Shown here one piece after another: positions 17,822 to 50,922 of a stretch of 64,000 nucleotides of DNA (positions are counted from its first letter, which is position 1; every line of letters starts with the position of its first letter). This DNA comes from Stenotrophomonas acidaminiphila. Lineage in GTDB: Bacteria; Pseudomonadota; Gammaproteobacteria; Xanthomonadales; Xanthomonadaceae. The notes beneath the pieces are model-generated. The model did not search any database and was not told the origin of the DNA. It saw nothing but the letters and a program-made list of their open reading frames with translations. Position numbers and translations under genes: made by a program. Location: positions 327,001 through 391,000 of the forward strand of contig CP019797.1 of assembly GCA_002951995.1 (NCBI GenBank). Reading direction: 5' to 3'.

Positions 17822-19551
17822 TCAGCGCTTCATCGAACCGAAGAACTCGTCGTTGGACTTGGTGTTCTTCATCTTGTCCAGCAGGAATTCCATCGCCGCG
17901 ATTTCGTCCATCGGGTGCAGCAGCTTGCGCAGGATCCAGATCTTCTGCAGCAGCTCCGGCTCGATCAGCAGGTCTTCGCGGCGGGTGCCGGAACGGTTGA
18001 TGTCGATGGCCGGGTACACGCGCTTCTCGGTGATGCGGCGGTTCAGGTGCACTTCGCTGTTGCCGGTGCCCTTGAACTCCTCGTAGATCACCTCGTCCAT
18101 CTTCGAGCCGGTTTCCACCAGCGCGGTGGCGATGATGGTCAGCGAGCCGCCCTCCTCGACGTTGCGCGCGGCGCCGAAGAAGCGCTTCGGGCGGTGCAGG
18201 GCGTTGGCGTCGACGCCGCCGGTCAGCACCTTGCCGGAGCTGGGCACGACGTTGTTGTAGGCGCGGGCCAGGCGGGTGATCGAGTCCAGCAGGATCACCA
18301 CGTCCTTCTTGTGCTCGACCAGGCGCTTGGCGCGCTCGATCACCATTTCGGCCACCTGCACGTGGCGTGCGGCCGGCTCGTCGAAGGTCGAGGAGACCAC
18401 TTCGCCGCGCACCGTGCGCTGCATTTCGGTCACTTCTTCCGGGCGCTCGTCCACCAGCAGCACGATCAGGTGCACTTCCGGGTGGTTGGTGGTGATGGCC
18501 GTGGCGATCTGCTGCATCATCATCGTCTTGCCCGCCTTTGGCGGGGAGACGATCAGCGCGCGCTGGCCCTTGCCCTGCGGCGCCATCAGGTCGAGGATGC
18601 GGCCGGTGATGTCCTCGGAAGAGCCGTTGCCGCGTTCCAGGGTGAAGCGCTTGCGCGGGAACAGCGGGGTCAGGTTCTCGAACAGCACCTTGTTCTTCGA
18701 CGCTTCGATCGGCTCGCCGTTGATGGTGTCGACGATGTTCAGCGCGAAGTAGCGCTCGCCATCCTTCGGGAAGCGGATGCGGCCGGCGATGTGGTCGCCG
18801 GTGCGCAGGTTGAAGCGGCGGATCTGGCTGGGCGAGATGTAGGTGTCGTCCGGGCCGGCCAGGTAGCTGGCCTCGGCGGCGCGCAGGAAGCCGAAGCCGT
18901 CGGGCAGGATTTCCAGCACGCCATCGGCGGCCACGCCCTCGCCATGGCGGGTCAGCACCTTGAGCAGGGCGAAGATCACGTCCTGCTTGCGGGCACGGGC
19001 CACGCCGTCGGTGATCTGCAGCTGCTCGGCGATTTCCAGCAGCTTGTGCGCCGGCATCTTCTTCAGATCGCTCAGCGAATAGACCGGGAAGCCTTCCGGC
19101 ACCGAAGGGTGCGGGCGCGGTACGAAGGTCTCGTTGCCGTTGTCGCCGGGCAGGCCGTCGTCGCGGAAGCGGTCGCGGTTGCGCTCACGGCGGTTGCGGA
19201 AGCGGTCGCGGCGATTGCCCTGGCCCTGACCCTGGCCTTGCTGGTTCTGCGGGTTCTGCTGGCCGTGGCGCTGGGCGTTGTTGTTGCCGTCGCCGCCGCG
19301 CGCCTCGCCACCCTCCTGGCCGGCGGACGGGGTGCCGGCCGGCGCGGGCGCCGGGGCGTCGTTGCCGGGGCCCGGGGTCGCAGGAGCGGGGGAACTGTCG
19401 CCGGCCGGCAGCGGCAGGGCGGACTGGGCCGGGGGGAAGCGGGGCTGCTGCTGTCGGCGGCCTCGGCGGCCTTGGCGACACGCGGCTTGCGCACGCGCTT
19501 CTCGACGGGCGCGTCGGCGCTCCCGGTTTCGGAAGGAGTGTTCTCGGACAA
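17822..19551 (-). CDS. rho: Transcription termination factor Rho with Q/N-rich N-terminal insertion; frameshifted in this sequence
   Basis: The hexameric RNA helicase that ends transcription at C-rich untranslated RNA. The RNA-binding part ([23 protein letters not shown]), Walker A ([15 protein letters not shown]), Walker B ([17 protein letters not shown]) and the Q/R-loop regions are intact, and the end is typical ([10 protein letters not shown]). The probable start is a TTG at 19549-19551 with GAGAGGA upstream ([19 protein letters not shown]). That frame is left at a run of six G (19431-19436; C on the coding strand): one more base would join it to the long frame as [11 protein letters not shown] disordered insertion of roughly 130 residues rich in Pro/Ala and then Gln/Asn/Arg/Gly (about 19130-19430) lies before the conserved domain. 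It is downstream of trxA, the usual order. Confidence 0.93.
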
Positions 19552-19742
19552 GTGCTTGATTCCTCTCGCTGACGTGCGAGCGCCTGACAGGGCGGCGAAC
19601 TGGTTGGGAATGATCCGGACGAGAACCCGGCCGGAGGGTGCGGCAGGCGAACGCTGCCGGATGCGGCGACACTAACACCGCCGCGCACGGCGGTGCAAGG
19701 TGGCGGGAAACGCCCGTTGGGCCGCGGTAAGGGCGGCCCGGA

Positions 19743-46672: not shown

Positions 46673-48868
46673 TCAATACAGGTCCATCGGGTCCACGTCC
46701 AGCGACCAGCGCACGCGCCGTGCCTGCGGCAGCGGGTAGACCTGCGGCATCAGCGTGTCGAGCAGGCCGTGCAGCGCACGCCGCTGCGTGGCCGACAGCA
46801 GCAGCTGGGTACGCTGGAAACCGGCGCGGCGCGGCATCGGCGCCGGCATCGGGCCGTAGCATTCGACCGGGCTGGCGTCGGGAACGGCCTGTTTCACCGT
46901 GGCCAGGAACGCATTGGCATGCTCCACCTGCCTGGCCTCGGCGCGGATCAGCGCCAGATGCGCGAACGGCGGGAAGCCGGCGGCTTCGCGCTGCGCCAGT
47001 TCGGCATCGGCGAAGGCGTGGTAGCCGCCGTTGACCAGCGTGTGCAGCAACGCGTTGTCCGGGTGGTGGGTCTGCAGCCAGACCTCGCCGGGGCGGTCGG
47101 CGCGGCCGGCGCGGCCGGCGACCTGGATCAACTGCTGGGCCAGCTTCTCGCTGGCGCGGAAGTCGGCCGAGAACAGGCCTTCGTCGATCCCCACCACCAC
47201 CACCAGGGTCAGCCGCGGCAGGTCGTGGCCCTTGGCCAGGATCTGGGTGCCGACCAGGATGCCGGGTTGCGCGCCGAGGGTGGCCAGGGTCTGTTCCAGC
47301 GCGTCGCGGCGGGCGGTGGTGCCGCGGTCGATGCGCAGCACCGGGAAATCCGGGAACAGCTGCAGCAGCCGCTCCTCCAGCCGCTCGGTGCCGATGCCCT
47401 GCGGCTGCAGCGCCAGGCTGGCGCAGTCCGGGCAGGCCAGCGGCACCGGCGCGCGCGCGCCGCAATGGTGGCACTGCAGGCGGCGCCCGGCGCCATGCAC
47501 GGTCATCGGGGTGGTGTGCAACGGCGTGCTGCAGCGGCTGCACGGCGCGGTCCAGCCGCAGTCGTGGCACAACAGCACCGGCGCGTAACCCCGCCGGTTC
47601 TTGAACACCAGTACCTGGTTGCCGGCACGCAGGTGCTGGTCGATGCCGGCCAGCACTTCCGGCGAGAGGCCGTCCTGCAGTGGCCGCTTGCGCACGTCGA
47701 ACACCCGCACCGCCGGCGGTCGCGCGTCGCCGGCGCGCTGCTGCAGGCGCAGGTGGGTGTAGCGGCCGGCACGCGCGTTGTGCAGCGATTCCAGCGACGG
47801 CGTGGCGCTGCCCAGCACCACCGGCACGTCCAGCGCCTTGCCGCGCACCAGGGCGAAGTCGCGGGCGTGGTAGCGGATGCCGTCCTGCTGCTTGTAGCTG
47901 CCGTCGTGTTCCTCGTCGACGATCAGCAGCCCGGCCTGCGGCAGCGGCGTGAACACCGCCGAGCGGGTGCCGACGATCACCCGCGCCTGGCCGCGCGCGG
48001 CCGCCGCCCACACCCGTGCGCGCTCGTTGTCGTTCAGTCCCGAATGCAGCGCGTGCACGGCGATGCCCAGGCGGCCGCGGAAGCGCGCCAGCATCTGCGG
48101 GGTCAGGCCGATCTCCGGTACCAGCACCAGCGCCTGCCGGCCCTGCGCCAGGCAGCGGGCGATGGCCTGCAGGTAGACCTCGGTCTTGCCGCTGCCGGTG
48201 ACCCCGTCCAGCAGGAAGGGCTGGAAGCCGTCGGCCGCGGTGATCGCCGCGATCGCCGTGTGCTGCTGCGGGTTGGGGTCCAGCCCCGGCAGCGGCTGCG
48301 CAACCGCCGGTGCCGCCGCCAGCGCCACGCGCTGCGCGAAGCCGCGCTTGAGCAGGGCGCGCCCGGCCTCGCGCCAGCCGTCCATGCGCGCGGCCAGCGC
48401 ATCCTCGGCCAGGGGACCGTCGCCGAGCAGCTCGGCCAGGCGTCGCGGCCGGCTGCCCGCGCGCAGCCGCGACAGGCCCTCGCGACCGGCCGCGGTCAGT
48501 TCCCAGCCCCAGTCCTGGGTATCGGGCAGCGGTTCGCCGCGCCGCAGGGGCGCCGGCAGCGCGGTGGCGACCACCTCGCCGAGCGGCGCATGTGCATAGC
48601 GCGCCAGCCAGCGCAGCGAGGCATACAGTTCACCGCCGAGCAGCGGCGGGCCATCCAGCCATTGCAGCGCCTCGCGCAGGGTCGCCGGGTCCTGCACCGT
48701 GCCGATGCCCTCGACCATGCCGACCAGCTCGCGGTTGCCGAACGGCACCTTGATCCGGCGCCCGGCATCGCCGGCGTCCGGCGCCGGACTGCCGGGCGGG
48801 GGCAGGTAATCGAAGGTCTGCGGCAACGGAACCGGCAGCGCGATGCGCAGGGTGGGGCAGGTGGGCAT
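46673..48868 (-). CDS. priA: Primosomal replication restart helicase PriA
   Basis: A 731-residue helicase that reloads the replisome at stalled forks (E. coli PriA 732). The N-terminal 3'-DNA-binding domain (LRIALPVPLPQTFDYLPPP), Walker A GVTGSGKTEVYLQ (about residues 214-226), DEEH box LIVDEEHDGSYKQQ (about 312-325), the zinc domain with eight cysteines (LLCHDCGWTAPCSRCSTPL and CHHCGARAPVPLACPDC, about 430-475) and helicase motifs V-VI (GTQILAKGHD, QVAGRAGRADRPG) are complete. The end VDVDPMDLY-like (SLDVDPMDLY) is typical. Confidence 0.97.
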   Translation of the reverse strand: MPTCPTLRIALPVPLPQTFDYLPPPGSPAPDAGDAGRRIKVPFGNRELVGMVEGIGTVQDPATLREALQWLDGPPLLGGELYASLRWLARYAHAPLGEVVATALPAPLRRGEPLPDTQDWGWELTAAGREGLSRLRAGSRPRRLAELLGDGPLAEDALAARMDGWREAGRALLKRGFAQRVALAAAPAVAQPLPGLDPNPQQHTAIAAITAADGFQPFLLDGVTGSGKTEVYLQAIARCLAQGRQALVLVPEIGLTPQMLARFRGRLGIAVHALHSGLNDNERARVWAAAARGQARVIVGTRSAVFTPLPQAGLLIVDEEHDGSYKQQDGIRYHARDFALVRGKALDVPVVLGSATPSLESLHNARAGRYTHLRLQQRAGDARPPAVRVFDVRKRPLQDGLSPEVLAGIDQHLRAGNQVLVFKNRRGYAPVLLCHDCGWTAPCSRCSTPLHTTPMTVHGAGRRLQCHHCGARAPVPLACPDCASLALQPQGIGTERLEERLLQLFPDFPVLRIDRGTTARRDALEQTLATLGAQPGILVGTQILAKGHDLPRLTLVVVVGIDEGLFSADFRASEKLAQQLIQVAGRAGRADRPGEVWLQTHHPDNALLHTLVNGGYHAFADAELAQREAAGFPPFAHLALIRAEARQVEHANAFLATVKQAVPDASPVECYGPMPAPMPRRAGFQRTQLLLSATQRRALHGLLDTLMPQVYPLPQARRVRWSLDVDPMDLY

Positions 48869-48881
48869 GGGCGGCAGTGTA
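48868..48881 (-). promoter_or_regulatory. -10 element of a probably leaderless priA transcript
   Basis: On the minus strand TACACT (48876-48881) is 7 bases before the priA ATG, so the transcript would begin at the start codon; no ribosome binding site is seen. Confidence 0.4.
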
Positions 48882-49029
48882 GGGCGGTGGCCGGTGCCCG
48901 GCACACCCCCGCGCCCGCTGCCCGCGGGCCGCCCGCGCCTGCGCCTGCGCCGGCGGGCGCGCTACTTGCGTGCGCTTGTGCAGCGCCAGAAGCATAAACA
49001 CCGCGTAAACGCAGGCCCCGATTGGAGAT

Positions 49030-49250
49030 TTGGGCTTATCCACACAACTTGTGGATAACTCTGTGCATCAGCGTTGTGCTCCACGCGTCCAAGGCGGTGG
49101 TTGAAGCCTTTCAGTCAACTTGGTCAAAAAATAGCCACGCCATCAATATATTTAAAATCAACAACTTGGCCGTGAAACAAAAGCGAAATGTGGGCGCGCT
49201 GGCGCAATCGCGGGCATCCGGGGCCGGACTATTGACGCTGTGCACAAGTT
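49030..49250. other. AT-rich intergenic region with DnaA boxes and an IHF consensus site
   Basis: The 493 bases between priA and the next gene (48869-49361) carry no supportable gene. They contain two perfect DnaA boxes in opposite orientation, TTATCCACA (49036-49044) and TGTGGATAA (49050-49058), a near match TGTGCATCA (49062-49070), a further TGTGCACAA (49239-49247), an AT-rich patch (about 49126-49165, with AATATATTTAAAA) and an exact IHF consensus AATCAACAACTTG (49156-49168). This composition is foreign to the GC-rich surroundings and looks like a DnaA-binding control or origin-like site. No dnaA, dnaN or rpmH is nearby. Confidence 0.6.
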
Positions 49251-49361
49251 GCGGCATGGGCCGCCCGCAACGGCGTGAAGAGCGCGTGGAGGCCGCCGCC
49301 GGCGGCATCTGCAGGGCGGGATCGGCTGGGTATCATTCCCGCCGATGAAGGAGTCCACCTG

Positions 49362-50372
49362 ATGGCTGCACCCGCCTCCCCCGCACCGGCCGCAGCCAGC
49401 GCCCTGTCCGCTTTCCTGAAAGGTGTCGAACGCCGCGCGCTGGTCGTCGCCAGCCTGCAGGGCGGCGACGAGGCCGCCGCCGCCCAGGCCGTGGCGGCCG
49501 CCATGCGTGGCTTTGCCGGCCCCGCCGCGGACCTGCCCATGGCCGACTGGCCGGCGCGCTTCTGGGCGTTGCTGTGCGGCAGCCCGCAACTGCGGGCACC
49601 GTCCCAGGGCGGGCGCTGGCCGCCCGCGCTGCTGCACCTGCAGCGGCTGGCGCCCGACCCGCGGCTGGCACTCTTGCTGCGTGTGGGTGGTGGCCTGGAC
49701 GAAGACGCCGCGGCCGCCGTGCTGGGGCTCACGCCCGAGGCATACCGGCGCGCGCTGGCCGCTGCCTGCCCCCTGGATGCGCAGGGCCATCCGGATGCGC
49801 TGGCCTGGCGCGGGCTGGCCGAGCAGGTGCAGGCACGGGTCCGCGAGCTGCCGGCCGGGCAGGTACAACAGCTGGAACAACTGCGCGGGATGACGGCGGC
49901 CGCCGCCGCGCCGGCGCCGCGGCCGGCACCCGCGCCCCGGGTCGAGGCCGATGGACGCAGGGTGCGCGCGCCGCGCCGTACCCGGGCGCGCTGGAGCCGG
50001 CGGACCTGGCTGTTGCTGTGCCTGCCGTTGCTGCTGCTGGCGCTGGTCCTGGCCTGGGGGTGGACCCGCCATGGCCCGGCGTTGCCGGGTGCGGCGGCGC
50101 CGGCCGCCGAGGGCGCGGTGGCGGACAACGGTCCGGTGCAGGTGGAAGCGCTGCCGGACGACGGCGCCCCCGCCGGGCCGGCGGCCGCCGACAGCCATGC
50201 CGCCGACGATGCCGCGATGCTCGCCGATCCGGAGCTGGCGCTGGCGCGGGACGCCGACTTCCATGCCTGGTACGCCGCCGGCGGCCCGCTGCCGGTGGAC
50301 GAATCGCAGGCGCAGCCCGGCCGCGCCGAACCTGCCGGCGGTGCACTGGAGACGGTCGATGCCGAGGATTGA
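49362..50372 (+). CDS. Sigma-factor-like protein with one membrane segment
   Basis: A 336-residue protein with AAGGAG 8 bases before the ATG and a TATCAT element about 26 bases further upstream. The N-terminal half resembles a sigma-70-type helical protein, with a region-4-like helix-turn-helix at about residues 105-140 (DEDAAAAVLGLTPEAYRRAL). This is followed by a Pro/Arg-rich linker, a single membrane segment at about 216-234 (TWLLLCLPLLLLALVLAWGW) and an Ala/Asp-rich periplasmic tail. The sigma resemblance is weak, and the link to a membrane helix suggests a degenerate or regulatory relative. Its end overlaps the DUF3106 gene by 14 bases, so the two probably act together. Confidence 0.7.
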   Translation: MAAPASPAPAAASALSAFLKGVERRALVVASLQGGDEAAAAQAVAAAMRGFAGPAADLPMADWPARFWALLCGSPQLRAPSQGGRWPPALLHLQRLAPDPRLALLLRVGGGLDEDAAAAVLGLTPEAYRRALAAACPLDAQGHPDALAWRGLAEQVQARVRELPAGQVQQLEQLRGMTAAAAAPAPRPAPAPRVEADGRRVRAPRRTRARWSRRTWLLLCLPLLLLALVLAWGWTRHGPALPGAAAPAAEGAVADNGPVQVEALPDDGAPAGPAAADSHAADDAAMLADPELALARDADFHAWYAAGGPLPVDESQAQPGRAEPAGGALETVDAED

Positions 50373-50922
50373 GGGGCTGCTAGTGGTAGTGCTGGCGCTG
50401 TTGCCGGCCGCGTCGTCGTTGGCGGCGCCGGTGGTGCCTGTCCTGCCGGCGGGCAGTACCACGCCCGCGCCCGATCCGGCGGTGGGCTGGCAGGCACTGG
50501 CCCCGGCCCAGCAGCGCGAGCTGCGCGCACGATATGCGGCGTGGCGCGCGCTGCCCGAATCCGAGCGCCAGCGGGTGCGCCGGGCCGCGGCCGAGGTGGC
50601 GGCATTGCCCGCGTCCGAGCGCGCGGCCGTGCGCAACCGCTTCCTCGGCCTGGACCGCCTGCACCGCGATGGCTGGCGGCTGGGCCCGCAGCTGGGCGCG
50701 CACTACCCGAAGCTGCAGCCGTTGCTGGGCTACCTGCCCGGACACCAGCGCGAACCGATGCTGGCGCTGCTGCGCCAGCTTGACGCCACGCAGCTGGCGC
50801 AGCTGGGTGTGCTGGCGCTGCGCACGCCGCCGCAGGAGCGCGATGCGCTGCGCGAGCGCCTGCTGGCGCTGCCGGCGGCGCAGCGCGGCGACTGGCTGCG
50901 GCAGCGCACCGAATCGCGCTGA
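50359..50922 (+). CDS. DUF3106 exported protein
   Basis: A 187-residue protein with a signal peptide (MPRIEGLLVVVLALLPAASSLA) and the DUF3106 pattern of repeated WxxL-type segments: WQALAPAQQRELRARYAAWR, LPESERQRVRRAAAEVAALP and LRTPPQERDALRERLLALP, which read as a coiled or helical repeat. Genes of this family commonly follow a sigma-like gene, as here, and may serve as a periplasmic partner or anti-sigma element; that role is unproven. It overlaps the gene before it by 14 bases. Confidence 0.8.
   Translation: MPRIEGLLVVVLALLPAASSLAAPVVPVLPAGSTTPAPDPAVGWQALAPAQQRELRARYAAWRALPESERQRVRRAAAEVAALPASERAAVRNRFLGLDRLHRDGWRLGPQLGAHYPKLQPLLGYLPGHQREPMLALLRQLDATQLAQLGVLALRTPPQERDALRERLLALPAAQRGDWLRQRTESR

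Follow-up and report, generated by a model that had tools for sequence, protein, structure and literature searches.

The window analysed here, a 64,000-nucleotide (64 kb) stretch at positions 327001-391000 of the complete 3.66 Mb chromosome of Stenotrophomonas acidaminiphila, includes a gap between priA and a divergently transcribed gene in which four DnaA boxes are found together with predicted binding sites for Fis and IHF (Table 1). The gene dnaA is at genome position 1, approximately 376 kb from this site. As in the DARS elements, which reactivate DnaA, the boxes are intergenic and their core is flanked by a conserved region, which here reaches to 49249; the element as a whole, which includes the core and box IV, has a length of about 250 bp. 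The divergent gene, with its sub-threshold sigma-region-4-like match, is followed by a DUF3106 gene (window 49362-50922). A scan of the gap identified one terminator-like site at 49001-49014, compared with 0.5 expected. An RNA gene was considered and rejected, the two Rfam matches obtained for 48800-49500 both falling far under their gathering scores.

Table 1. Genes, DnaA boxes and predicted protein-binding sites at the priA locus, in window coordinates.
Feature	Position	Strand	Basis or remark
priA, primosomal helicase	46673..48871	-	Pfam PriA_3primeBD, DEAD, Helicase_C, PriA_C; start codon faced by box I
Whole conserved DARS-like element	48999..49249	+	nhmmer model from 25 copies not adjoining priA, E 1.7e-21
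DnaA box I, TTATCCACA	49036..49044	+	exact
DnaA box II	49050..49058	-	exact reverse complement of TTATCCACA; head-to-head with box I, 5 bp gap
DnaA box III, TGATGCACA	49062..49070	-	1 mismatch to TTATNCACA; tandem with box II, 3 bp gap
Fis-consensus site, GGTCAAAAAATAGCC	49122..49136	.	exact to GnnYAnnnnnTRnnC; predicted from sequence
AT-rich stretch beside IHF site	49142..49159	.	inside lowest-GC 60-bp window of the 64 kb (49108-49167)
IHF-consensus site, AATCAACAACTTG	49156..49168	+	exact to WATCAANNNNTTR; predicted from sequence
Distal DnaA box IV, TTGTGCACA	49239..49247	-	1 mismatch to TTATNCACA
Divergent neighbour gene, outside element	49362..50372	+	weak sigma-region-4-like match PF08281, 21.8 bits vs cut-off 25.7

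DnaA boxes and neighbouring sites in the gap

The initial annotation of this DNA described two inverted DnaA boxes 5 bases apart with near matches at 49062 and 49239, and all four are present: the inverted boxes are both exact, and the two near matches, TGATGCACA and TTGTGCACA, are both on the minus strand with a single mismatch each to TTATNCACA. It did not recognise that the 49062 box completes a DARS-type triple, and it missed the Fis-consensus site. The core at 49036-49070 reads TTATCCACA-N5-TGTGGATAA-N3-TGTGCATCA, three DnaA boxes oriented and spaced as in the core of E. coli DARS1, with box I opposed to boxes II and III and the spacing that is found in both DARS1 and DARS2. Boxes I and II are the only TTATCCACA sites in the window at up to one mismatch, and their number alone represents no excess (the mean for the shuffled window is 2.26). 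The excess is in their close pairing, since the genome holds 15 exact boxes and any two of 15 uniformly random positions would start within 14 bp of each other with P = 0.0008. At up to three mismatches, the 35-base three-box pattern has a single occurrence in the 3.66 Mb genome, although a more degenerate second copy may be present.

The consensus strings used for Fis and IHF are those printed in an extract of PMC4245941, with C allowed besides T at the first position of the IHF string. The exact IHF consensus reported earlier was confirmed as AATCAACAACTTG, and is one of two in the 64 kb window, compared with 0.12 expected; the only other is at window 19549-19561. The AT-rich stretch, described as unlike the rest of the window, was also borne out, as the GC content of the segment 49108-49167, 0.317, is the minimum for 60-bp windows across the 64 kb. 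This patch is also where the Fis- and IHF-consensus sites lie, and we take the stretch at 49142-49159 to be the AT-rich arm of the IHF site.

The combination of DnaA boxes with an IHF site and an AT-rich stretch is also seen in oriC, and the relic of an origin had been offered as an alternative. That the site is a secondary or relic oriC-like origin is very improbable, in view of its distance from dnaA and of the two exact boxes at 1444-1487, just after dnaA and before the presumed dnaN (recognised by eye). These two boxes are 35 bp apart in the other relative orientation, and the region following dnaA gives no full-length match to the element profiles described below, which score it at E 0.024 or worse. 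The AT-rich patch is the location of the Fis and IHF sites, and windowed GC skew, for which an inflection had been suggested as a check, has no clear switch at the site. We note that close to the genome end, about 155 bp before dnaA (L003:5708-5740), the near boxes TCATCCACA (+), TCATCCACA (-) and TTGTTCACA (-) follow one another in 12-base steps, perhaps for dnaA autoregulation.

Conservation of the core and its flanking arm

The earlier proposal was made to depend on the boxes being conserved in relatives, and they are: the core is present at up to two mismatches in 114 of the 119 sampled genomes of the window's family, Xanthomonadaceae, and the reversed control pattern in none of the 119. 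In all 114 core-bearing genomes a core is situated 5' of the PriA match, at a distance of 7-394 bp (median 139), and box I points towards priA in each (strands judged by eye); split PriA matches were merged by hand for these distances, and one listed core was used per genome, or three in some. Four of the five core-less genomes (G005, G007, G024 and G104) have no PriA match reaching the N-terminus, and the fifth, G114, has a nearly full-length PriA match with the core absent at up to two mismatches. The element lies 3.6-15.6% of the chromosome away from dnaA in 17 single-contig family genomes (11 of them with rounded lengths), a narrow range that could be explained by conserved gene order. In one family genome the region upstream of priA contains a series of three DARS-like cores (G115:C13:48425-49193), and three genomes of a single genus (G022, G067 and G094) have extra DARS-like cores on contigs without priA, possibly second DARS copies.

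We also fetched 80 PriA loci from named genomes, 76 of them with enough upstream sequence, and the pair of boxes is present with the identical 14-base offset and no more than one mismatch per box in 63 of these 76, a count from which loci L014-L043, not turned to the priA strand, are excluded. Pseudomonas and Photobacterium are among the 13 loci lacking the pair, and the genomes of these two have DARS-like cores elsewhere. By identity, the nearest PriA proteins to that of the window come from Stenotrophomonas. A locus titled Bacillus subtilis (L064, JAHREJ010000035.1) encodes a PriA 76% identical to that of the window and groups with Stenotrophomonas, probably through contamination or mislabelling.

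The exact pair is found in 152 of 369 genomes in a class-wide search, with no instance of the reversed control among the matches listed, and we picked 40 places by hand among those matches. Six of the 40 lack the third box and are perhaps not DARS; these were retained in the register test described below and excluded from the profiles. The association with priA in the family raises the question of whether the site is instead a priA promoter region controlled by DnaA, IHF and Fis, which would couple restart capacity to the state of DnaA while leaving DnaA itself unaffected. The near-invariant linkage to priA, with box I facing the gene, is also what a priA regulator would be expected to display, and 11 of the 40 class-wide copies likewise face priA, with box I towards the gene. 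The other 29, however, have no PriA match within the stretch examined (usually 3 kb on either side), and the open frames nearest to them are mostly unrelated to one another. A profile built from 25 copies not adjoining priA nonetheless recovers the window element at its full length (Table 1) and, with a threshold of E 1e-3, finds 68 of 83 loci (L044-L126). That a profile derived from copies away from priA finds the element beside priA is the strongest argument for an action on DnaA and not on an adjacent gene. The Fis and IHF sites and box IV are moreover on the side away from priA, and a scan for one promoter type found no sigma-70-like promoter at 48850-49380. We therefore regard control of priA alone as an unlikely account of the site.

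Of 17 genomes of fetched loci that were searched at up to three mismatches, 16 have a core, and core-bearing genera include Pseudomonas, Marinimicrobium, Granulosicoccus, Thiogranum, Rhodanobacter and Dokdonella; one core of Photobacterium aquae adjoins uvrB, as in E. coli. The 1.5 kb flanks of the 30 loci from this 17-genome search contain no match to the DnaA or presumed DnaN of the window genome, and these loci are thus not obvious origins. One genome has two cores (G136:C1:1260686 and 2508945), one adjoining priA about 8% of the chromosome from dnaA and the other at about 34%, close to the relative position of DARS1.

Alignment of the priA-upstream gaps reveals conserved blocks outside the core as well, and we examined these in 81 elements, of which 29 have no priA nearby. 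The set combines the 40 class-wide places with 41 priA-upstream elements, mostly but not exclusively from the window's family. These 41 were obtained by applying an ungapped filter at 75% identity to 64 elements, namely that of the window and 63 from the 80 fetched loci; the 17 other loci were left out, four having insufficient upstream sequence and 13 lacking the pair. All elements were oriented so as to give the better fit to box III, which slightly favours finding a third box, and TGTG is present at the box III offset in all 41 priA-upstream and 34 of the 40 class-wide elements. Counting from the base after box II, the sites fall in register at +63 for Fis, +97 to +100 for IHF and +179 to +183 for box IV, the register windows having been picked from peaks in the same 81 elements. 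An exact Fis match (7-base window) is in register in 32 of the 81, compared with 0.5% of control windows; at up to one mismatch, IHF is in register in 59 (0.8% of control windows) and box IV in 71 (0.6%). These counts should not be read as p-values, since related sequences are not independent, and in 16 further loci from named genomes that played no part in the choice of registers and so serve as an independent check, Fis, IHF and box IV were each found in five. The Fis reading is weaker than those of IHF and box IV, as just 32 elements have the exact site. Nor is the arm universal, because Photobacterium and E. coli DARS1 lack good matches in register: none of the three sites has a good match in four Photobacterium elements, and three Pseudomonas elements have a near Fis match (one to two mismatches) with no good IHF or box IV. 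Single DnaA boxes are common enough by chance in 64 kb, but the equal spacing in 63 of 76 loci, the presence of the core in 114 of 119 genomes and the register tests together leave the probability of a chance cluster negligible.

Comparison with E. coli DARS1, DARS2 and datA

The E. coli MG1655 stretches holding DARS1 and DARS2 were fetched, and their boxes assigned here from map position and equal spacing. On this assignment the DARS1 core, in the bioD-uvrB intergenic region, is TTATCCACT-N5-TGTGGATAA-N3-TGTGTATTA, and the equally spaced triple of DARS2, between rppH and mutH, is TTATCCCAG-N5-TGTGGATAA-N3-GGTGTAAGA; boxes I, II and III are at offsets of 14 and 12 in both, identical to those in the window. 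Consistent with this, an extract of PMC5742627 describes a three-box core shared by DARS1 and DARS2, with equal spacing and with box I opposite to boxes II and III.

The sequence relationship to DARS1 extends beyond the boxes. The profile from copies not adjoining priA finds the DARS1 core at E 1.3e-5, and a priA-upstream profile aligns 89 bp comprising the core and its box III-side flank (L125:3108-3196) at E 7.2e-8. The best in-register matches of DARS1 to the Fis, IHF and box IV sites have two mismatches each, that for IHF being a string at +98. DARS1 may thus be an eroded relative, although a match with two mismatches is weak evidence when taken alone. DARS1 differs in location, adjoining uvrB about 34% of the chromosome from dnaA whereas the window element adjoins priA, and in extent: the DARS1 subtype is about 100 bp and active without IHF or Fis, while the window element has a DARS1-like flank, is longer, and includes sites for both proteins.

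DARS2, about 20% of the chromosome from dnaA in the fetched coordinates, resembles the window element in having IHF and Fis sites within a few hundred base pairs of its core, as the window has both consensus sites near its own. The arrangement is different, however, as is the mutH/rppH location. By our reading, about 195 bp separate the DARS2 core from its known IHF sites, which lie towards box I, and the essential Fis sites are farther out still (core - IBS1-2 - FBS2-3); in the window the arm lies beyond box III and has the order core - Fis - IHF - box IV. Against the profiles, the DARS2 core scores weakly: its best match, at E 0.012, is on the strand opposite to that assigned, and on the assigned strand E is no better than 0.61. 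DARS2 (L124) also carries, at +96 and towards box III, an IHF-like string with one mismatch, in the IHF register of the window and apart from the known IBS1-2; the texts consulted report no function for this string.

A further possibility is a datA-like site, in which an IHF bend between the core and box IV would stimulate DnaA ATP hydrolysis, or which would simply titrate DnaA. E. coli datA also has IHF between groups of DnaA boxes (PMC5742627, in extract), and the 3.6-15.6% distance from dnaA in the 17 single-contig genomes is comparable with about 11% for datA. The internal spacing is nevertheless different: datA has no DARS-type triple of a 5-bp head-to-head pair followed by a 3-bp tandem box, its boxes at L202:4907 and 4919 being 3 bp apart and another lying 56 bp past IHF, and the minimal datA layout (boxes 7-2-IHF-3) is not seen in the window element. 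The E values of datA against the three profiles range from 0.0065 to 0.023, and we consider a datA-like function quite improbable.

A probable DARS-type reading, its proposed mechanism and its spread

As judged from its sequence and conservation, the site is probably a DnaA-reactivating element of the DARS type that has a regulatory arm of its own, responsive to IHF and Fis. It would be a variant DARS layout in a new location, with a possible added role in priA control. The initial annotation had favoured a DnaA-control element of the datA or DARS kind over the main oriC; the family-wide core and its DARS anatomy support that preference and narrow it specifically to the DARS type. The genome encodes the relevant proteins: Hda and IHF alpha are above their cut-offs (curated in the case of Hda), a Fis homologue has 49% identity over residues 23-97, and DnaA shares 54% identity with its E. 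coli counterpart and, as read off the alignment, keeps the equivalents of Asp269, Arg281, Arg285, Leu290 and Arg334, residues whose roles are described in the extracted text of PMC5742627.

By analogy with the E. coli biochemistry, ADP-DnaA would bind head-to-head on boxes I and II, together with box III, in a complex whose arm may be shaped by IHF and Fis, and ADP would be released. DnaA would then leave as apo-DnaA and rebind ATP, so that more ATP-DnaA would be available by the time oriC next initiates. More speculatively, box IV, past the IHF bend, might be folded back to the core or serve as a sensor of DnaA-ATP; box V of DARS2 is described as a sensor in part of PMC8682772. A local effect on priA transcription may accompany these events.

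A more ambitious proposal, which we put forward as possible rather than probable, is that the ancestral DARS was a single rigid 250-bp scaffold for IHF, Fis and DnaA, often beside priA and near the origin. DARS1 would then be an eroded descendant that has lost IHF, Fis and box IV, and the complete apparatus, in which box IV is an integral DnaA sensor, would persist in Xanthomonadaceae-type bacteria and many other lineages. The copy in the window would possibly be the only DARS of its genome, and possibly tie DnaA reactivation to priA expression.

In the texts consulted, DARS elements are described for E. coli and its relatives as far as Vibrio and Shewanella: extracts of PMC8682772 give DARS2-like sequences in Shigella, Erwinia, Yersinia, Photorhabdus, Rahnella, V. 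cholerae and Shewanella, those of PMC6090056 give DARS-like sites in V. cholerae at uvrB and mutH, and PMC5742627, also in extract, places DARS in E. coli-proximal beta- or gamma-proteobacteria. Pseudomonas is not named in the extracts of PMC4585315 and PMC12371093, nor Xanthomonas in that of PMC12371093, and within the open-licence literature, judged from search listings, we found no report of this element for Xanthomonas, Stenotrophomonas, Pseudomonas, Vibrio or priA. The distribution described here suggests that DARS-based timing of chromosome replication extends well past the close relatives of E. coli. If the element is a DARS, its recognition in 114 of 119 family genomes and in many genomes of the class would point to a broad layer of replication timing. 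The elements can moreover be aligned with one another, forming a natural series from which the parts that matter can be read, and they give reason to look for a vestigial IHF site in E. coli DARS1.

The spread may be wider still. The pattern is present at up to one mismatch in 139 of 398 genomes in a phylum-wide search (counted by hand), of which 87 are of the same class or closer and 52 are labelled 'same phylum' only, the latter being concentrated in a few families; the occurrence in these 52 suggests that the element may predate the class or reach outside it. The outside-class cores belong to families such as f207, f211 and f215, while no core is seen in a number of other complete 'same phylum' families.
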